A stretch of DNA of 64,000 nt from an uncultured Bacteroidia bacterium. GTDB taxonomy: Bacteria; Bacteroidota; Bacteroidia; Bacteroidales; F082. Shown one piece after another: positions 54,481 through 64,000 of the stretch. Position 1 is the first letter of the stretch. Every line of letters starts with the position of its first letter. The stretch is from NCBI GenBank assembly GCA_902791165.1, contig CADAVB010000005.1:1-64000 (forward strand). The letters run 5' to 3'. The position numbers and the translations under genes were made by a program. The notes under the pieces were generated by a model. The model saw only the letters and a program-made list of their open reading frames with translations, ran no database searches and was not told where the DNA came from.

Positions 54481-56520
54481 ATGATTACCAAACAAGCCTT
54501 GGGCAACCTCCTTTTCGGCATGGCCGACATCCTTCGCGACAAAGTGGAGGATTACAAATCATATATCCTTTCATTGTTATTCTTCAAGCGTCTTTCCGAC
54601 AATTACCAGTGGGAAATTGAGGATGGAAAAAAGCAATTTGAAGTTGAATACGCACGCGAGCCTTCACCAAGAGAATTGGATGTCATAACCAGTAAAAAGC
54701 ACGATTTCACCATCCCGCAAGGTTGTTTTTGGAATGATGTGCGTCTGGCTTCCATCGACAAGAAGAACGAGAAACTGGATAAGGCTGTCACGGAAATTGC
54801 GGAACAGAATGTTGACAAGAATGGAAAATACATCCTCAAAGGTATCATCAATACGGTGCGATGGAACGAGCCCGCTCCTGATGGCTCTGGCGGAAAGAAG
54901 TTGGACCCCGAGGTGCTGACTAACCTTATCAACTACCTTAGTGCCGTGGATTTGAGCAACAAGAATGTGACCGTGGATGTGCTGGGCGATGCTTACGAAT
55001 ACCTCATCAAGCGTTTTGCAGACGAGAACAAGGGCGGTACCATGGCAGGACAATTCTACACGCCACAGGAAGTGGTCGACATCATTGTCCGATATTTGAA
55101 ACCACAAAAAGGTGAAACCATATATGACCCCACCTGCGGCTCTGGCGGTTTTCTGCTGAACGCGGCCAAATATGCGCGTGCCAGCTACGACACGCAAAAA
55201 GGTGTCCGTCTCTTCGGGCAGGAACTGGTGTGGAACACATGGGCTATCTGTAATATCAACATGATCCTCCATGGTTTGGATGCCCGCATTGAGCAAGGCG
55301 ACACCATCCGCGACCCGAAATTCAAGGATGAAGACAACGAACTTGAACTTCGCACTTTCGACAAGGTGATGGCCAATTTCCCGTTTTCTTTGGAGAACTG
55401 GGCGCAAAACGGCGAGCCCAAGAAGGACAAAAAAGGCAATACCGTCAACAAGAAGGATGGTACGCCGCAGATTGAATACAAGAAGGAGTTTACCGACCCA
55501 TACAACCGCCTCGTTTATGGCGTTCCACCATACAGCAACGGCGATTTCGCTTTTTTGCAGCATATTATTGCTTCACTCGACGACAAAGGCAAAGCAGGTG
55601 TGGTGTGTCCGCAAGGTGTGTTGTTCCGTGGCCAGCCGGAGAAGACCGAGGAGGAAGATGGACAGAATCGCAAGGCCGATGTGGAGTATATGATTCGTCG
55701 TGGTTTTTTGCAAGGCGTCGATTTCAAGCAGCATATCAATATTATTGACGCCATTGTGGTGCTGCCCGGCAATTTGTTTTATGGTACCACCATTCCCGGT
55801 GCCATCATTTTCTTCGACAAGAACAAGCCCGAGGACCATAAAAACAAGGTGCTGATGGTGTATGCTGCCAAGAAAGGCTGGTACCGCGAAGATGCCAACA
55901 TGAGTGTGTTGGAGCCTCAGGATGTGCTGCGGATTTCCACCATGCTGGAGAGCTGGGGTGACATCGACAAAGCCAAGGATTGGATAGCGTTACAGAAGAA
56001 CAGGCTTTATAACCAGATAGACGAAGACCTTGATTTTCAGATGTCTGAAATCGACAACGATACGGCAGAGGAGTTGGCCCAAGCAAGACGCCGTTTGGCT
56101 AAAGCCGAGAAAACCGTCAATGACAAGTTGACTACAAACAAGAAGCCGACGGCGAGTGAAAAGAAAGCGGTGGAAACAGCGCAAAAGGCTTTGGACAAGC
56201 TGACTGCCGATAGGACAGCCCGCGAAAAAGCCGCCCATGAGAAAGGCGAAAAACAATGCCAAGCTATCGCCGAGGTGGAATCGGAGTTGATGCAAATGTT
56301 AGGCGACCCTGAGTTGCGCAAGCGTTATTTCTCCATCGTGGACATGGACGAGATTGAGGAAAACGAGTTCAACCTCAACATCCCGCGTTATGTCGATACT
56401 TTTGAGCCTGAGGAACAGATAGACTTGAAGGAAGCCATTGCCGATTTCCTAAAGGCGATGCAAGCGGAATCGGATACGGAGAAGGAACTAGAGGAACTGC
56501 TGAAATCAATTGACAATTAA
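54481..56520 (+). CDS. hsdM: Type I restriction-modification methyltransferase subunit HsdM
   Basis: A 679-residue N6-adenine DNA methyltransferase subunit. The N-terminal helical domain (LLFGMADILRDKVEDYKSYI; LSLLFFKRLSD) is followed by the catalytic part: YDPTCGSGGFLLNAAKYA (SAM motif I, Asp216) and the catalytic motif IV, here NFPF at residues 299-302 instead of the usual NPPF/Y. The C-terminal third is a coiled coil (LAKAEKTVNDKLTTNKK) ending NLNIPRYVDTFEPEEQIDL. It pairs with HsdS for modification. The 3' end (SIDN and stop) lies in a repetitive ATTGACAATT stretch. Confidence 0.94.
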   Translation: MITKQALGNLLFGMADILRDKVEDYKSYILSLLFFKRLSDNYQWEIEDGKKQFEVEYAREPSPRELDVITSKKHDFTIPQGCFWNDVRLASIDKKNEKLDKAVTEIAEQNVDKNGKYILKGIINTVRWNEPAPDGSGGKKLDPEVLTNLINYLSAVDLSNKNVTVDVLGDAYEYLIKRFADENKGGTMAGQFYTPQEVVDIIVRYLKPQKGETIYDPTCGSGGFLLNAAKYARASYDTQKGVRLFGQELVWNTWAICNINMILHGLDARIEQGDTIRDPKFKDEDNELELRTFDKVMANFPFSLENWAQNGEPKKDKKGNTVNKKDGTPQIEYKKEFTDPYNRLVYGVPPYSNGDFAFLQHIIASLDDKGKAGVVCPQGVLFRGQPEKTEEEDGQNRKADVEYMIRRGFLQGVDFKQHINIIDAIVVLPGNLFYGTTIPGAIIFFDKNKPEDHKNKVLMVYAAKKGWYREDANMSVLEPQDVLRISTMLESWGDIDKAKDWIALQKNRLYNQIDEDLDFQMSEIDNDTAEELAQARRRLAKAEKTVNDKLTTNKKPTASEKKAVETAQKALDKLTADRTAREKAAHEKGEKQCQAIAEVESELMQMLGDPELRKRYFSIVDMDEIEENEFNLNIPRYVDTFEPEEQIDLKEAIADFLKAMQAESDTEKELEELLKSIDN

Positions 56521-56539
56521 CAATGAACAATTGACAATG
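56502..56539. repeat. AT-rich CAATTGACAATG repeat, first patch
   Basis: Three overlapping variants of CAATTGACAATTAACAATG and CAATTGACAATGG spanning the hsdM stop and the next start. The same motif returns before hsdS. Confidence 0.8.
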
Positions 56540-57697
56540 GAACTGAAGAAACATAATACGGAAATAGAGCAAACGCCCGATTCTATGCCGGGACTGTTTC
56601 TGGATGCTTGTACCATTATTGAACAAGCGCAGACAACGGCCTACCGCACTGTGAACGAAACGCTCATCAAGCGCAACTGGCTGCTTGGTATGCGCATACA
56701 ACACGAGGTGCTGAAAGACAAACGGGCGGAGTATGGTGAGCAGGTGGTGAAAGCTTTGGCTGCATTTCTTACCAACCGCTATGGAGAAGGTTTCACCAAA
56801 ACTAATCTTTACAATTATGTGAGCTTTTACCAATATTGGCCCGACTTTTTCCACGCAGTGAGTGGAATTTCTTTGGAAAATGATACCGAGAAGATTTTCC
56901 ACGCAGTGAGTGGAAAATCTGACGAAGAACCAGTTTCCAACATTATGAACGCGCTGCGTTCACAATCAACTATTCGGTTGTCTTGGACTCACTACCGCAT
57001 CATCCTGCAGGAATCCAACGCCGAAGCCCGCGCCTGGTACGAGAACGAGGCTGCCAACGAAATGTGGAGCACCCGCACCTTGCAGCGCAATATCTCTTCG
57101 CAATACTACCACCGAATGCTTCAGTCGCAGAACAAAACTGCCGTACACGACGAGATGGTGAAACTCACCCAACCGCTACAGGACAAACTTGAATATCTGA
57201 AAAATCCTGTGGTTGCCGAATTTTTGGGCTTCAAAAACAATGCGGAATATACCGAGAGTCGACTTGAGCAGAGCATTATCGACCATCTTGTGCCTTTCCT
57301 TATGGAGTTGGGCAAAGGCTTTGCCTTTGTTGACCGCCAAAAACACATTCACACCGAAAAGGAAGACTACTATATCGACCTTGTTTTCTACAATTATCAT
57401 TTGCGTTGTTTTGTCCTCATTGATTTGAAAACGACGAAGTTGTGCCATCAAGATGTTGGGCAGATGGATATGTATGTGAAGATGTACGACGAACTGGTGC
57501 GCCCCGAAGGGCATAACCCGACCATTGGCCTGTTGCTTTGTGCCGACACCGACGAGGATGTGGCGCATTACTCGGTGCTCAACGGCAGCGACCAGCTTTA
57601 CGCAGCCAAGTATCTCACCTATATGCCTACGCAAGAGGAATTGCGCCGCGAAATAGAGCAGCAGAAGGAATTTTACAGGTTGAAGAATGGAGAATGA
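56537..57697 (+). CDS. DUF1016/YhcG-type PD-(D/E)xK nuclease
   Basis: A 386-residue protein. The N-terminal DUF1016 helical domain (ACTIIEQAQTTAYRTVNETLIKRNWLLGMRI; YGEGFTKTNLYNYVSFYQYWPDF) binds DNA, and the C-terminal nuclease domain has YYIDLVFYNYHLRCFVLIDLKTTK with the D...DxK active-site pattern. It is the intact counterpart of the interrupted gene at 36660. The family appears often in restriction and toxin loci. The ATG at 56537 is preferred over one at 56510 that lies in the repeat. A short FHAVSG segment occurs twice (near 109 and 125), flanking SLENDTEKI. Confidence 0.88.
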   Translation: MELKKHNTEIEQTPDSMPGLFLDACTIIEQAQTTAYRTVNETLIKRNWLLGMRIQHEVLKDKRAEYGEQVVKALAAFLTNRYGEGFTKTNLYNYVSFYQYWPDFFHAVSGISLENDTEKIFHAVSGKSDEEPVSNIMNALRSQSTIRLSWTHYRIILQESNAEARAWYENEAANEMWSTRTLQRNISSQYYHRMLQSQNKTAVHDEMVKLTQPLQDKLEYLKNPVVAEFLGFKNNAEYTESRLEQSIIDHLVPFLMELGKGFAFVDRQKHIHTEKEDYYIDLVFYNYHLRCFVLIDLKTTKLCHQDVGQMDMYVKMYDELVRPEGHNPTIGLLLCADTDEDVAHYSVLNGSDQLYAAKYLTYMPTQEELRREIEQQKEFYRLKNGE

Positions 57698-57706
57698 ACA
57701 AGAAGC

Positions 57707-57779
57707 AATGAACAATTGACAATGGATAATGAACAATTGACAATGGATAATGAACAATTTACAATTGACAATGAACAAT
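57707..57779. repeat. 21-bp tandem repeat, second patch, before hsdS
   Basis: Two perfect units of 21 bp (57707-57727, 57728-57748) with core AATGAACAATTGACAATGG, then a partial variant running into the hsdS start codon. It is built from the motif seen at 56502-56539. Confidence 0.9.
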
Positions 57780-59049
57780 GATGGAAGGTTGGAAAACAGA
57801 TAAGTTCAAGAATCAGATTCAGTATAAATCTGGATATACATGGTCGAAGGAGCAAGAGTTGAAAGCTCAAGAGCCTAATTCGGTCAGAGTGCTTACTGTG
57901 ACGAATATTCAAAAGGACTTGGATTTGTCGGAAGAATTGTATCTGCAAGGTGTCAATGAAAAAGACAAGAAAGAAAAAGCGGTAAGTAAGGATTGGTGTA
58001 TTGCCGTGAGCTCCAATGGCAATAGAAAACGAATCGGCAATGCTGTTTTCATAAAAGATGACACAGATTATTTGTTTGCATCATTTCTAACTGCCTTTAA
58101 GCCGAAAGACAATTCAGATATTTTGCCAGATTACTTTTTCCGTTGGCTGACTTCACATAATGTTCAAGAACGTATAACTTCTGTCTCAGAAGGCACAACG
58201 GGATTGGGAAATTTGGATATCCGATATTTGAGGAATATGGATATTCATTTCCCTGAAAAGCAAGAGCAAACCGCCATAGCCGCCATGCTCTCGAAGGTTG
58301 ACGAGGCGATAGCGGCGGTGCAGGGCAGCATAGCCGCCGCCGAGCGACTGAAAAAGAGCCTGATGCAGAGCCTCCTCACCGGCCGCATGAAACCCGACGG
58401 CACCCTGCGCACCGAAGAAGAGTTCTATTTGGATGAGAAGTTTGGAAAGGTGCCTGTGGGGTGGAAGGTGAAAAAAGTCAAGGATTTGTTTTATATGAAT
58501 CAAAACACTTTATCCAGTAATACAAATGCTGATTATAGGTTTAGGTATATTACGATTGAGGCAGTAAACACAGAAAAAATTGAATTTGAAAACTGTCCTA
58601 ATTATTCATTTAAAGACTCACCAGGTAGAGCAAGACGTATTATTAAGGACGATGATATTCTAATATCAGGTGTAAGACCTAATTTAAAAGCATTCGCTAT
58701 CTATAATAAGCCAGATTCTTATAATTGGATCTGCTCAACCGGCTTTCATGTTTTGACGGCTAAGGAGAAAGTTTGTCCTCAATTTTTCTTTTATCAGATA
58801 TTGAGTTCAATAGGCGCTTCTCAATTTCATAGTTGGGTGGCTGGTTCAAATTATCCAGCAATTGGAGATTCTGACATGAAAAACATGTTGTTATATACGC
58901 CACCTTACGAAGAACAATTAGTAATAAATCAAAAGTTCGAAAGCATTTCAAAAACGCAAAAAATAAAACAAGAAAAAATTGCCGTCCTTGAAAGGCTGAA
59001 GAAGTCATTGATGCAGAATTTGCTGACGGGGAGGGTGAGGGTAAATTGA
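57778..59049 (+). CDS. hsdS: Type I restriction-modification specificity subunit HsdS
   Basis: A 423-residue DNA-recognition subunit with two target-recognition domains: TRD1 at about 1-155 and TRD2 at about 215-395. The two conserved coiled-coil spacers are nearly the same: QGSIAAAERLKKSLMQSLLTGRM in the middle and KIAVLERLKKSLMQNLLTGRV at the end. TRD parts are AT-rich and the central spacer is clearly GC-richer, a sign of TRD exchange by recombination. The start may be 57778 or the next ATG at 57781. The recognised sequence cannot be predicted. Confidence 0.93.
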   Translation: MMEGWKTDKFKNQIQYKSGYTWSKEQELKAQEPNSVRVLTVTNIQKDLDLSEELYLQGVNEKDKKEKAVSKDWCIAVSSNGNRKRIGNAVFIKDDTDYLFASFLTAFKPKDNSDILPDYFFRWLTSHNVQERITSVSEGTTGLGNLDIRYLRNMDIHFPEKQEQTAIAAMLSKVDEAIAAVQGSIAAAERLKKSLMQSLLTGRMKPDGTLRTEEEFYLDEKFGKVPVGWKVKKVKDLFYMNQNTLSSNTNADYRFRYITIEAVNTEKIEFENCPNYSFKDSPGRARRIIKDDDILISGVRPNLKAFAIYNKPDSYNWICSTGFHVLTAKEKVCPQFFFYQILSSIGASQFHSWVAGSNYPAIGDSDMKNMLLYTPPYEEQLVINQKFESISKTQKIKQEKIAVLERLKKSLMQNLLTGRVRVN

Positions 59050-59065
59050 GCAATAACACAAAACA

Positions 59066-59809
59066 ATGATACATATGAAGAATAAGATTACAAAGTGGTT
59101 CATAATAAGCTGCATTATTACAGTGGCTATTATGCTGTTTTCAAAACTGTTCCCTTTTATTAAATGCTCTTGGTCTGCTGATTTTTGTAAAGACTGGAAT
59201 GATTTCTGGTTTGGATTTTCGTGCAGTTTATTATGCAGTTTTATTGTTGCATATTTAATGTATTATTATACGGATTTCAGACCACGCAAGGTGTTTTCAA
59301 TTCAAGTAAAACCTATATTGAAAAGGAAACTTGAGATTATGCATCAAACATATGATTTTGTTTATAGAAAATTCGGCGGATTGGGTAATTTTGAAAAATC
59401 GGATAATGAGAATCTTGCTCAATTATTGAGGAAGAATATTTGGGCAGATAAAATCGAAGGAACGGAGCATACATATAATGACGTAGTTCAAGAAACGATG
59501 ATTGAGTTAAGGAGAATAATTGCAGAGTTCTTAACATATTCTAAGTATTTAGAAGACTATCAAATATTTAAATTAGAAGAAATAGTCAATATGGCATATT
59601 GTGGAATACAAATTGCAAAAAAATGCACTACAGACTCTAGTGGAATGCAAAAATCTTTAGTAACTGGGAATGTTTTAATAAATTGGCTTCAATTATATGA
59701 AAGAGACACTTTTGTTGATGAAGTATTTATTCCGTCATATAGAAAATTGTTAGAAATTGAAAAGTCGTTTAATACAGAAATAAATAATGGGAAAAAGAAA
59801 ACTAATTGA
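59066..59809 (+). CDS. Two-helix membrane protein of the hsd cassette, unknown
   Basis: A 247-residue protein (or 244 from a second ATG at 59075). Two membrane helices at about residues 11-29 and 46-68 enclose a short loop with CSWSADFCKDW; the remaining 180 residues are soluble and helical (VKPILKRKLEIMHQTYDFVYRKF; QETMIELRRIIAEFLTYSKYLED). No family recognised. It starts 16 bp after hsdS and ends 20 bp before the proteasome-like gene, so the genes look co-transcribed. Strongly AT-rich compared with hsdM and hsdR. A membrane effector or anchor is a reasonable guess from topology only. Confidence 0.65.
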   Translation: MIHMKNKITKWFIISCIITVAIMLFSKLFPFIKCSWSADFCKDWNDFWFGFSCSLLCSFIVAYLMYYYTDFRPRKVFSIQVKPILKRKLEIMHQTYDFVYRKFGGLGNFEKSDNENLAQLLRKNIWADKIEGTEHTYNDVVQETMIELRRIIAEFLTYSKYLEDYQIFKLEEIVNMAYCGIQIAKKCTTDSSGMQKSLVTGNVLINWLQLYERDTFVDEVFIPSYRKLLEIEKSFNTEINNGKKKTN

Positions 59810-59829
59810 GAGTAAATAAATAATCAAAA

Positions 59830-61110
59830 ATGACAGCAATAGTAGGAATATTAAATAAACATGGAATTGCGATTGCAGCCGATAGTGCAGAAACTATTGG
59901 TAACGGAATTAAAATATATAATAAGGCAAATAAAATCTTCAATTTGTCAAAATATCATCCTGTGGGAGCAGCAGTATATGGGAGTGCTAATTTTAGTGAT
60001 TTAACTCCATGGGATATAATCTTTAAGTTGTATCGGGAAAATATAGGCAAGCAATGCTTGAACAAAACAGAAGATTATGTTATTAGTCTTATTTCTTTTA
60101 TAGAAGAAAAGCAATTCTTTTCTGACACCAAAGAATTAGAGAATAGTTTGTGTAACAATATTTTATCCTATTTCAATGAATACATTATTATCAATCGAAT
60201 TGGTCATGGAAATCCTAATGGGATTGATTTGACAAAATTACCAACAGTATTGAAAGAGATTCAGAAAGAAATATCGACTTCGCCAGTTATTGATTCAATT
60301 AAAGATGTGACCAAAGAAGAGTTTATTTCAAGTTTAGGGATTGCTCTGAAACAAATAAAACAAACTCTCGCCCAAAATGGTTTTGATTATAAAACAATTG
60401 AAAATGAATTAAAAGAAGTTTTATATTTGTCTTTTACACGAAAAGAGAATATGCATAACCATTCAGGAGTAGCAATTTTTGGATACGGGGAAAACGAAAT
60501 ATATCCACGTTTGTTCAGATTAAAAATATATGGGGCTATTTGTGGAAAACTAAAATGGTATATAGAGGAAAAATGTATAATTGATAATAATAACACAGGA
60601 ATTGTATGCCCAATGGCTCAACAGGATGTTATGATGACTGTTTTGTGCGGTATTGAACCCAAATTGAAGAAACTAATAGTCCAATTAACATCTCAAGTTA
60701 TAACGGAAAATATTAAGCAAATAGCCTCAACAGTTGGAAAAACAGACAAGTCCTTGGCAAAAAGTATTTCGGCAATAAATGTTCAGCCTACTTTGGATTT
60801 ATTCAATAATAATCTAAAAGCAATTATTGACAGTAATCATGTTTTTCCACTTATTAACACTATTGCAATTCTGCAAAAAGAAGACTTGGCTGAAGTGGCC
60901 GAGAATTTAATATATCTCACTTCTCTTATAAGAAGGATTACTCCTGACAAGGAAAGTGTTGGTGGTCCAATAGATGTTGCTTTGGTTTCAAAAGGAGATG
61001 GTTTTATTTGGATAAAGCGCAAACATTATTTTGAAGAAACATTGAATAAAAATTATTTTGGCAAATACTATATCGATTCCGATGATAGAAAGGAGGCAAA
61101 CAATGAATAA
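59830..61110 (+). CDS. Proteasome-beta-like Ntn hydrolase of the hsd cassette
   Basis: A 426-residue protein. The start MTAIVGILNKHGIAIAADSA matches the first strands of proteasome beta subunits: after Met removal Thr2 would be the nucleophile, Asp18 fits the conserved acidic residue and Lys35 in NKIFNL fits the catalytic lysine. Further matches are GAAVYGSANFSDLTPWDII, the strand pair SGVAIFGYGENEIYPRLFRL at about 214, and near the C-terminus SVGGPIDVALVSKGDGFIWI, like the final strands of the fold. The 180-220-residue core is expanded by helical insertions at about 65-205 and 260-365. Self-assembly and substrates are unknown. The 3' end overlaps the next start by 8 bp. Confidence 0.72.
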   Translation: MTAIVGILNKHGIAIAADSAETIGNGIKIYNKANKIFNLSKYHPVGAAVYGSANFSDLTPWDIIFKLYRENIGKQCLNKTEDYVISLISFIEEKQFFSDTKELENSLCNNILSYFNEYIIINRIGHGNPNGIDLTKLPTVLKEIQKEISTSPVIDSIKDVTKEEFISSLGIALKQIKQTLAQNGFDYKTIENELKEVLYLSFTRKENMHNHSGVAIFGYGENEIYPRLFRLKIYGAICGKLKWYIEEKCIIDNNNTGIVCPMAQQDVMMTVLCGIEPKLKKLIVQLTSQVITENIKQIASTVGKTDKSLAKSISAINVQPTLDLFNNNLKAIIDSNHVFPLINTIAILQKEDLAEVAENLIYLTSLIRRITPDKESVGGPIDVALVSKGDGFIWIKRKHYFEETLNKNYFGKYYIDSDDRKEANNE

Positions 61111-61282
61111 TTATCTGAATAACAACTCTTTTTCTGGAGAATCAAATAAGAATGAATCAAGGTATTCAGTATGTGAAGATAAAAATCAAGCTCAATGGAT
61201 AAATCAGGTTGCAAGACAAGCTGCCAAACTCATCTCACAACAGATCAAGGAATCCAATAATCAATCTAAAAAATCTAAATAA
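61103..61282 (+). CDS. Small 59-residue protein of the hsd cassette
   Basis: A short hydrophilic protein: an Asn/Ser-rich first half (MNNYLNNNSFSGESNKNES) and a helical second half (QAQWINQVARQAAKLISQQIKE) with a basic end. The ATG is preceded by AAAGGAGGCA, a very strong Shine-Dalgarno site, and overlaps the end of the Ntn-hydrolase gene by 8 bp. It could be a partner, inhibitor or substrate of that protein, or an antitoxin for the Fic protein 15 bp downstream. I looked for the Fic inhibitory motif (S/T)xxxE(G/N) and found no exact match. Confidence 0.6.
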   Translation: MNNYLNNNSFSGESNKNESRYSVCEDKNQAQWINQVARQAAKLISQQIKESNNQSKKSK

Positions 61283-61297
61283 ATCATTAATAGGAGA

Positions 61298-62158
61298 ATG
61301 AAAACTTCCATCCGCTTCTATAACGACCGCGAGGTGCGGGCTGTGTGGGACGAGAGCCAGAACAAATGGTGGTTCTCGGCTGTTGATATTGTTGCCGCCA
61401 TCACCGAAAGCCCCAATCCGAGAAAATATTGGAGCGTGCTCAAAACCCGACTGAGAAAGGCCGGAAACGAGTTGACTACAAAATGTAGCCAACTCAAAAT
61501 GACCGCCGCCGATGGTAAAAAATACGCTACTGATTGCTTCTCTCAAGACGATATAATCGAATTGGTGAAACTTATCCCCAGCAAAAAGACTGCCGATTTC
61601 CTCGACTGGTTCACATACAGCGACAACACCATCGACGGGAAAAGCCGTAAAAAAGCTTACGAACTCTGGGAAAGCAACTTGGTGGAGGACAAAAACATCG
61701 GCACTACCAAAAGCCTGCAACAAATCCACGCCTTCCTGTTCGGGGGCTTGTATGATTTTGCCGGACAAATCCGCACCAAGACCATTTCAAAAGGCGGATT
61801 CACATTCTGCGTGGCCCAATACCTGCCCCAAGCCCTGCAAACCATCGACAAAATGCCCGAAAACACCTTTGACGAAATCGTGGACAAATACGTGGAAATG
61901 AACGTGGCGCATCCCTTTATGGAAGGCAACGGTCGCAGCACCCGCATTTGGCTCGACATGATACTGAAAAAACGGCTGAAAAGATGCATTGATTGGAGCA
62001 AAATCAACAAGAACGACTATCTCCGTGCTATGGAACTAAGCGCCGCCGACAGCACTTTCATCCGTCAGTTGTTAATCGGAGCCCTCACCGACAAGATTGA
62101 TGACCGTGAATTATTCATGAAAGGCATTGATTATTCATATTATTACGAGGAGAATTGA
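61298..62158 (+). CDS. BRO-N/Fic fusion protein (predicted AMP transferase)
   Basis: A 286-residue fusion. Residues about 1-105 form a BRO-N domain (VRAVWDESQNKWWFSAVDIVAAITESPNPRK, then DCFSQDDIIELVKLIPSKKT). Residues about 125-270 are a Fic domain: QIHAFLFGGLYDFAGQIRTKTISKGGF and the complete catalytic motif HPFMEGNGRSTR with His205, Glu209, Gly210, Asn211 and Arg213. Fic enzymes transfer AMP or other nucleotide parts to proteins. It lies 3 bp before hsdR and after the small cassette gene. Base composition returns to that of the hsd core genes. I see no inhibitory helix motif within the protein. Confidence 0.88.
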   Translation: MKTSIRFYNDREVRAVWDESQNKWWFSAVDIVAAITESPNPRKYWSVLKTRLRKAGNELTTKCSQLKMTAADGKKYATDCFSQDDIIELVKLIPSKKTADFLDWFTYSDNTIDGKSRKKAYELWESNLVEDKNIGTTKSLQQIHAFLFGGLYDFAGQIRTKTISKGGFTFCVAQYLPQALQTIDKMPENTFDEIVDKYVEMNVAHPFMEGNGRSTRIWLDMILKKRLKRCIDWSKINKNDYLRAMELSAADSTFIRQLLIGALTDKIDDRELFMKGIDYSYYYEEN

Positions 62159-62160
62159 TT

Positions 62161-64000
62161 ATGAGCAAACTGTCCGAATCTAAATCTGTAGAATCCAAAG
62201 TCACCGAGTGGCTCACCCAGTTGGGTTGGGAATACCGCTCGGCGGAGGATTTGAAACCCTATAACCGCTTGCAGATGAATGCGGTGGTGGAGCCGATACT
62301 AGTGGAGCAGGTAATGGCTTTGAATGGCATCAGCCAGCAAGCGGCCAAGATGGCGGTGGAGACTTTGCTCAACAACCTGCGCAATCCCATCCCCATTGAG
62401 GGCAACGAGAAGTTCCTCAACCAACTCTGCGATGGCGTCAACATCACGATTGACCATAAAGACTGCACCATACGCTTCATCAATTTTGAGGACATTTGGA
62501 AAAACAGCCTCATCGTCACCAACCAATTTGCGGTGCAACAGGTACGTGCAGACATCTGCCTGTTGGTCAATGGCATACCGTTAGTGCCCATCGAGGCTAA
62601 GCAGTGCGCAAGGCGCGGCACCAACTGGCTTGAAGGCGTGCGCCAGTTCCAGACCTACGACCGCCGAAGCGAGAAACTGTTTGTGTGTCACCTCTTTGGC
62701 GTGGCATGTAACGGAAGGCTGAGCAAATACGGCATTCTGGGTGCATCGTCGTCCTATTTCAACGAGTGGAAGGATTCGGTCATCGCCGACAAATACGACA
62801 ATCCGCTGTTGCATCCTGAAAACGAGTTGTGCCGTGTCTATAAGGATGAAAAGGATGGCCTAATGCACTTCGATGTGGAGCGGTTGCCTAACGGTCAGTT
62901 ACTCGAACAGATGAAGTTTGGCATCATTGGTTTGTTGCAGCCTGAGCGTGTGCTTGACATCCTGCAACATTTCATTGTGTTTGAGCGCGACGACAACAAG
63001 ATCATCAAGAAAGTGGCGCGTTACCAGCAACTGCGAGCGGCCAACAAGATTGTGGATAGGGTGGTGCAGTCCGACAAGGCGCAAGGCGTGATTTGGCACA
63101 CCCAAGGTTCGGGCAAGTCGCTCACCATGCTTTACACTGCCTACAAACTCCGCAAGACCGAAACCTTGAACGATCCGACCATTTTCATCGTGGTGGACCG
63201 CAAGGACCTGAAAGACCAGATGGACGACACCTTCTTCAACTGTGTGTTTCCGAATGCGCGGGTGGTGATGAGTATTGGCGACCTGAAAAGCATACTCAGA
63301 AACCAACCTGCTGGCGTGTTCATCACCACCATTCAGAAGTTCAAGGAGTTGGGCGAGATCAAGGACGAGCGCGACAATGTCATCGTGCTCATAGATGAAG
63401 CTCACCGCACCGAATACGGCGACTATCAGATGGAACTGCGTGCCGTGTTGCCCAACGCCAAGCGTTTCGCCTTCACGGGTACGCCGATTCCCAAGACCCA
63501 TCGGGAGTTTGGCATCAAGGATGAAAACGGCAAGATAGAGTATTATTTGGACAAATACAGTGTCATCGATGCCATCAACGACGGGGCCACCAAGCCCATC
63601 CGCTACACTTTGGGTCCTTCGCAGTGGTTTTTGGACAAGGAAAACCTCAAACAAGGCTACGCGGAAATCACTGCCGAGTTGGAGGAAGACCAGAAACGCT
63701 TGGTGGAACAACGTGTGCAGCCATGGAAAACCCTGATGAAGAAGCCTGAGCGCATCAAGACCTTGGCCGCCGACATTGCCAAAGACTTTCGCGAGCGATT
63801 GGAGCCGCAAGGCTTCAAGGCGCAAGTGGTGGCTATCGACAAGGAGGCTTGTGTGCTGTACTACAACGAATTGCTCAACTATTTCGATCCATCGGAAATC
63901 CGTATCATCTTTTCCACAGGACAATACGAAACCAGCGAACGTTACGACCTCTTTTCGCCGTTCTACATCGACGACAAGGAACGCAAACGCCTAATCGACA
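62161..64000 (+). CDS. hsdR: Type I restriction subunit HsdR, cut by the window edge
   Basis: The first 613 residues of the translocating endonuclease subunit. The N-terminal nuclease domain has RADICLLV (Asp131) and PIEAK (Glu145, Lys147), the PD-(D/E)xK site. The helicase motor follows: Walker A TQGSGKS (Lys319), VVDRKDLKDQMDDTF (motif Ia), DEAH at 412-415, and FTGTPI (motif III). The frame remains open at 64000; about a third to a half of the protein lies outside. It starts 2 bp after the BRO-N/Fic stop, so they are likely co-translated. Confidence 0.95.
   Translation, partial: MSKLSESKSVESKVTEWLTQLGWEYRSAEDLKPYNRLQMNAVVEPILVEQVMALNGISQQAAKMAVETLLNNLRNPIPIEGNEKFLNQLCDGVNITIDHKDCTIRFINFEDIWKNSLIVTNQFAVQQVRADICLLVNGIPLVPIEAKQCARRGTNWLEGVRQFQTYDRRSEKLFVCHLFGVACNGRLSKYGILGASSSYFNEWKDSVIADKYDNPLLHPENELCRVYKDEKDGLMHFDVERLPNGQLLEQMKFGIIGLLQPERVLDILQHFIVFERDDNKIIKKVARYQQLRAANKIVDRVVQSDKAQGVIWHTQGSGKSLTMLYTAYKLRKTETLNDPTIFIVVDRKDLKDQMDDTFFNCVFPNARVVMSIGDLKSILRNQPAGVFITTIQKFKELGEIKDERDNVIVLIDEAHRTEYGDYQMELRAVLPNAKRFAFTGTPIPKTHREFGIKDENGKIEYYLDKYSVIDAINDGATKPIRYTLGPSQWFLDKENLKQGYAEITAELEEDQKRLVEQRVQPWKTLMKKPERIKTLAADIAKDFRERLEPQGFKAQVVAIDKEACVLYYNELLNYFDPSEIRIIFSTGQYETSERYDLFSPFYIDDKERKRLID

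Follow-up and report, generated by a model that had tools for sequence, protein, structure and literature searches.

Within the window analysed here, a stretch of 64,000 nucleotides from an uncultured Bacteroidia bacterium (contig CADAVB010000005.1, positions 1 to 64,000), a type I restriction (hsd) locus contains two adjoining genes on the + strand, which we call B (59830..61110) and C (61103..61282). They code for a 426-amino-acid (aa) protein resembling the proteasome-like enzymes known as PMI-4 and for a small partner protein of 59 aa. We tentatively read the pair as a mobile cassette consisting of a proteasome-like threonine peptidase and a dedicated small regulator, probably carried as anti-phage cargo of an abortive-infection-like type; taken as a whole, this reading has in our view somewhat less than an even chance of being right. 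An earlier note on this DNA had combined B and C with a preceding membrane protein gene A (59066..59809, + strand) into an effector module of the hsd locus, and the coordinates of the three open reading frames (ORFs) and the residues named there were correct.

Gene B codes for a predicted proteasome-like peptidase

The N-terminus of B (residues 2–48) matched the Proteasome family of Pfam below the threshold (E 0.0068) and the HslV family of PHROG weakly (E 5.8e-4), and a near full-length match was obtained with the PHROG family phrog_5990 (E 1.7e-91); a search of the PDB by sequence gave no match. For an alignment of relatives, 152 of 170 sequences were counted as full length and 116 were retained after removal of redundancy, with two satellites, a prophage and an Enterococcus plasmid being excluded from the full-length set because their profile match was split. 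At position 2, this alignment contains Thr in 113, Ser in two and a gap in one of the 116 sequences, Asp18 and Lys35 are present in all of them, and the late ESVGGPIDVAL strand is largely conserved as well. This conservation supports the proposal of the earlier note that B is a proteasome-like N-terminal nucleophile (Ntn) hydrolase with a predicted triad of Thr2, Asp18 and Lys35 in register. The protein is predicted to lack a propeptide, and removal of Met1 would expose Thr2 as the nucleophile. Natural Thr-to-Ser exchanges at the predicted nucleophile were observed in loci L004, L041, L044 and L040 (MSS... or MSA...), and the length of B ranges from 402 to 465 aa among the loci read.

Structure prediction and a structural search yielded a proteasome beta fold for B, together with the two large helical inserts already suspected in the earlier note. 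The elements of the model follow each other as helix 61–72, helix 80–93, helices 100–203, strands 212–263, helix 265–303, helices 307–347 and helix 350–367, which places the inserts after H1/H2 and between H3/H4, with H1–H4 being assigned by their order in the model.

The small partner gene C

C overlaps the last 8 bases of B, and its 59-aa frame is preceded by AAAGGAGG. Judged by its ribosome-binding site alone, C may be strongly translated. Between the window and the sibling locus L011 of genome G364, C is 85% identical, with nonsynonymous and synonymous substitution rates (dN and dS) of 0.066 and 0.33, respectively, which is the pattern of a protein under constraint.

A small gene behind B proved to be a regular feature of the best 80 of the 456 genome loci found, which we surveyed together with the window. 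An ORF of 45–95 codons with its start in the interval from 60 bases upstream to 25 bases downstream of the stop codon of B was present in 75 of the 76 loci with an intact B, five loci with a broken B being omitted, compared to 113 of 734 other genes from the same loci. After including phages, plasmids and viral contigs and removing redundancy, an ORF of 40–95 codons followed B in 108 of 113 cases (controls at the same limits: 132 of 734), and with looser limits (33–95 codons, start allowed up to 90 bases ahead of the stop) in 112 of 113 cases (controls: 193 of 734); three B loci at contig ends were left out of these 113. The four partners regained with the looser limits are either ORFs of 34–37 codons behind a ribosome-binding site or start 80 bases upstream and contain the family motif described below. 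In public records, the partner gene is annotated for Javan103, Javan468, phages of Providencia, Porphyromonas and Stenotrophomonas (41 aa) and an Enterococcus plasmid; it is unannotated in the record of a Pantoea plasmid, and the Javan85 record stops at B.

Most of these partners are also related by sequence. Phmmer produced 485 links among the C proteins, joining 96 of the 108, as opposed to 4–6 links among shuffled sequences. They share a helix motif of 20 residues, which reads roughly P-x-E-[IL]-[AGS]-x-x-[ILV]-[AS]-x-[KR]-[LI]-[LI]-x-K-[IVL]-x-x-Q-[LF], scores 884 versus 334–342 in shuffles, and is used by about 78% of the sequences. The ORF of locus L082 does not contain the motif and is apparently spurious, but is counted as a partner in the tallies. 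Position and relatedness thus bear out the suggestion of the earlier note that the 59-residue protein is a true partner of B. C matched no family of Pfam, NCBIfam, PADLOC or PHROGs, and no natural fusion of B and C occurred among the loci read. A search for orphan copies in 296 genomes of the phylum returned three confident C matches, every one of them adjoining B, and five further weak matches (E 0.002–0.006), which we judged to be due to chance.

In the model of C from the window, the first half is predicted to be disordered and a single helix spans residues 26–57, with a predicted local distance difference test score (pLDDT) of 94 for residues 31–50 and 70 overall. Being mostly disordered with one amphipathic helix, C would be suited to docking on an enzyme. 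Another role for C would follow if B were a connectase-like protein ligase or processing enzyme, with C as a substrate or tag that is cut or joined to a target by B. This reading draws on the large inserts of B and its one dedicated small protein, as well as on connectase itself, which a 2021 survey describes as a proteasome-like ligase, rather than a protease, with insert-based specificity (PMC8665760). However, the partner proteins of some 34–75 residues lack the shared, conserved C-terminus that a tag would call for, so C does not look like a tag, and its best-conserved part is a helix rather than an extended cleavage site; we therefore regard the ligase reading as rather improbable.

Mobility and distribution of the gene pair

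The loci of Tenacibaculum and Belliella share a block of 83% identity that starts 3 bases ahead of B and ends 165 bases past it, with C ending at +163, while the identity is 0.26–0.32 upstream and 0.40 or less downstream of the block. Longer shared blocks were found between other pairs of loci. The window and L011, a relative with 88% identity, have a block in common that extends from the ATG of B through C into the start of the following Fic-family gene and leaves A outside. Judged by these boundaries, the unit of transfer is B plus C.

B was detected in nine of 296 genomes of the phylum, four of them with weak partial matches, in seven of 173 genomes of the family, in 13 of 50,697 phage records (seven being Streptococcus satellites), in 10 of 72,556 plasmid records (one partial) and in 159 stretches of viral contigs. 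The small gene directly behind B recurs in different bacterial phyla as well as in archaea, and likewise on temperate phages and on satellites of phages. In Javan103, B and C form the last gene pair, after an annotated small terminase gene; they are also last in Javan468, whose small terminase is not annotated. Satellites of the phage-inducible chromosomal island (PICI) type are described as carrying accessory genes, occasionally for phage resistance, in the stretch from terS to the 3' end (PMC13376191).

Antiterminator Q (9 of 140) and a repressor family (8) are among the neighbours of B in phages, as are endolysins, these being raw counts uncorrected for background. Such antiterminator, repressor and endolysin neighbourhoods are common cargo sites. 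One Porphyromonas phage carries the pair within its portal-to-neck region, as would be expected of a phage structural or maturation protease. We consider this function highly unlikely, because other phages carry the pair close to genes for antitermination, repression or lysis, or in a direction opposite to that of the neighbouring late genes, and because it is also present in hsd loci and in satellites without capsid genes.

The restriction locus as a cargo slot

In the window, hsdS (57778..59049) and hsdR (62155..63999, continuing beyond the window) form the left and right edges of a cargo slot, inside which A, B and C follow one another on the + strand. The host locus further comprises hsdM (54481..56520) and, between hsdM and hsdS, a gene for a YhcG/DUF1016 PDDEXK nuclease (PDC-S02; 56510..57697), whereas the slot contains a Fic-family gene as additional cargo behind C (61298..62158), all on the + strand. 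The AT-richness of A, B and C reported in the earlier note was confirmed, as their G+C contents are 0.294, 0.311 and 0.300, respectively, versus 0.486 for hsdM, 0.517 for the part of hsdR in the window and 0.481 for the entire window. Promoter matches in the window stayed at the level of shuffled sequences; terminator matches amounted to three versus a shuffled mean of 1.1, and none was located on the + strand past C up to position 61500. The Fic-family gene, assigned to the PADLOC candidate family PDC-S04, has a BRO-N-like N-terminal domain (Pfam, 2.8e-6), and sibling L011 retains just a Fic fragment.

Two more sibling hsd loci (L198 and L199), whose hsdM/hsdR DNA is 80–85% identical, do not contain B, and the genes in their slots between hsdS and hsdR show G+C contents of 0.28–0.41. 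The slot of L198 (5645-9954) holds an apparent two-gene system of a calcineurin-phosphoesterase/nSTAND protein (1029 aa; PADLOC candidate PDC-S60, E 1.2e-125) and, behind it, a 392-aa metallo-beta-lactamase-fold protein, and the other B-less slot holds a 715-aa protein without Pfam match and a Schlafen/AlbA_2 protein. Thus, the four sibling loci (the window, L011, L198 and L199) present four different gene sets, with B and C common to two of them. Because siblings fill the hsdS–hsdR interval with differing genes, we regard it as a cargo slot and the B-C pair as one of its cargoes. The immune-like genes with which siblings fill the slot lend indirect support to an immune role of B and C. Directly before B, L011 (8032-8709) carries genes for a small 96-aa CxxC protein, zinc-ribbon-like by eye, and, after it, a protein of 127 aa in which two segments are hydrophobic; both are unrelated to A by phmmer.

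Gene A codes for a 247-aa protein with two hydrophobic segments according to a simple hydropathy count. It matched nothing near the cut-offs of Pfam, NCBIfam and PADLOC and gave one weak match of unknown function with PHROGs (E 0.011). Homologs of A were found nine times in a large protein search, but in none of the 80 B loci by phmmer, and the block shared with the sibling begins at the ATG of B. We therefore rejected A as a member of the module and treat it as neighbouring cargo outside the conserved pair; of the self-contained three-gene module proposed in the earlier note, the pair of B and C remains.

The earlier note had further linked B to restriction and envisaged proteolysis coupled to DNA restriction. 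With the proteins of the window as queries and flanks of up to 10 kb (shorter at contig ends), HsdM was found near B in only four, HsdS in two and HsdR in two of the 80 loci. Among the six other B-bearing genomes of the family, some of them with short flanks, only G364 (L011) showed the hsd setting. That B is a protease effector working together with type I restriction appears very improbable on this evidence: the window and one sibling genome do have B in the hsdS–hsdR interval, but HsdM is rare near B elsewhere, sibling hsd loci exist without B, and satellites carry the pair without hsd genes. We therefore rejected a general coupling to hsd, and the position of B and C in an hsd locus is a local setting. 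With regard to the outcome that the earlier note had named as refuting its reading, the homologs of B are indeed scattered as far as hsd and A are concerned, but clearly not as far as C is concerned.

Possible function of the pair

Our reading of B and C as a peptidase cassette with a small regulator can be made more explicit. They may represent a mobile 'proteasome-peptide' system acting by abortive infection, in which a peptide-sized regulator restrains a proteasome-family protease turned immune enzyme. Such a system would travel among archaea, bacteria, phages and satellites and take up interchangeable cargo positions in restriction loci; we hold this fuller version to be possible, with roughly one chance in three. 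Loss of Met1 would free Thr2, and the large helical inserts would preclude a proteasome barrel and turn B into a peptidase that is specific rather than bulk. The C-terminal helix of C would dock on B and either hold it inactive or assemble it, and an infection disturbing the balance between both proteins would lead B to cut a protein of the phage or of the host. If the immune reading is true, proteasome-type proteolysis would take its place beside the caspase-like, trypsin-like and Lon-type proteases among bacterial immune effectors, with an unusually small regulator.

Several observations weigh against this reading. The Foldseek template modelling scores (TM-scores) of B are modest owing to the inserts. 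C is very divergent, and its homology is assigned from low pairwise scores, from its location and from a short motif in the helix. In two satellites, the partner is identified by position only, as it has no match to another C at an E value of 0.01 or lower, and the partner on the Enterococcus plasmid matches one other C (E 0.005). No small gene follows B in L072 and in L185, the latter from a second survey. The search for orphan C copies is weak evidence because its model failed to detect C beside B in G038 and G187. Finally, a comparison of 135 near neighbours of B (the closest of 252) with 135 far ones (a random choice from 199), which left out genes of <120 or >899 aa and loci W and L044, revealed no clear difference in defence genes, the top PADLOC family reaching at most 3 of 135 on either side. 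The numbers of PADLOC families matched were 173 near versus 45 far, but the families overlap to a large extent, and the figures do not count genes. Among the near neighbours are several housekeeping genes, such as ALAD (4 of 135).

The housekeeping neighbours, the lack of a strong defence-island signal and the broad taxonomic range would suit a horizontally spread quality-control or physiological peptidase, with C as an assembly factor or trans-acting propeptide and without any immune role. Against this stand the rare and patchy occurrence of B in the phylum and the family and its carriage by phages and by satellites with small genomes, and we consider such a function improbable.

A plain toxin-antitoxin or addiction pair, in which B would be a growth-inhibiting peptidase and C the antitoxin stabilising the carrier element without sensing phages, agrees with the abutting genes, the small partner and the presence on satellites, phages and plasmids. 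Moreover, a single in-frame stop interrupts an otherwise full-length B in five of the 80 genome loci (L028, L029, L030, L032 and L045), with C intact in four of the five, a pattern that would accord with B being costly and C harmless; these stops were seen in contigs of metagenome-assembled genomes and may be assembly errors. Most antitoxins lie upstream of their toxin, whereas C sits downstream of B, and an intact B persists without C in L072 and L185, so that we regard an addiction pair as unlikely. In these two loci, which represent a subgroup of B, the C-terminus of B is altered, with W where most sequences carry Y-F after a KRK motif.

Comparison with known systems

The profile scan of PADLOC for known defence systems gave no match with A, B or C. 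Like type II toxin-antitoxin and two-gene anti-phage systems, B and C form a small abutting pair on mobile elements, and the two-gene unit with a small partner is realised in 108 of 113 cases, or 112 at looser limits. The chains of HslV, Anbu, BPH and proteasome beta subunits comprise 182–245 aa, as opposed to the 426 aa of B with its two helical inserts and small-protein partner. HslV has the AAA+ unfoldase HslU as its partner; the conserved neighbour of B is the small protein C, and the 25 near-neighbour Pfam families listed of 102 include no unfoldase. Connectase resembles B as a proteasome-like member with a specificity-giving insert, but has its insert at S3/S4, is archaeal and acts as a ligase, a distinction made here by its description in the survey (PMC8665760).

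Apart from phrog_5990, the family of unknown function that B matches nearly end to end, the closest known relative is PMI-4, the Proteasome homolog with Multiple Insertions 4 of Fuchs, Alva and Lupas 2021 (PMC8665760; reference sequence HDY66466.1, KEGG OC.661505-661513). We likened B to it by the features described in that paper: both show a proteasome beta-like fold, a Thr/Asp/Lys triad, no propeptide, inserts after H1/H2 and between H3/H4, and an occurrence in bacteria, Euryarchaeota and phages. The survey reports no informative gene context or co-occurrence for PMI-4, and the titles and beginnings of abstracts listed by our searches, with subscription papers and preprints outside the scope, contained no report of a partner of B, of the cassette or of an immune role of PMI-4. 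The protein family of B is thus already known by sequence, whereas, within the reach of these literature searches, its partner gene and the unit in which both move are new. Unlike PMI-4 as described, B is accompanied by a dedicated small downstream gene and belongs to a mobile two-gene unit, and this partner gene and the carriage on mobile elements give PMI-4-like proteins a testable handle.
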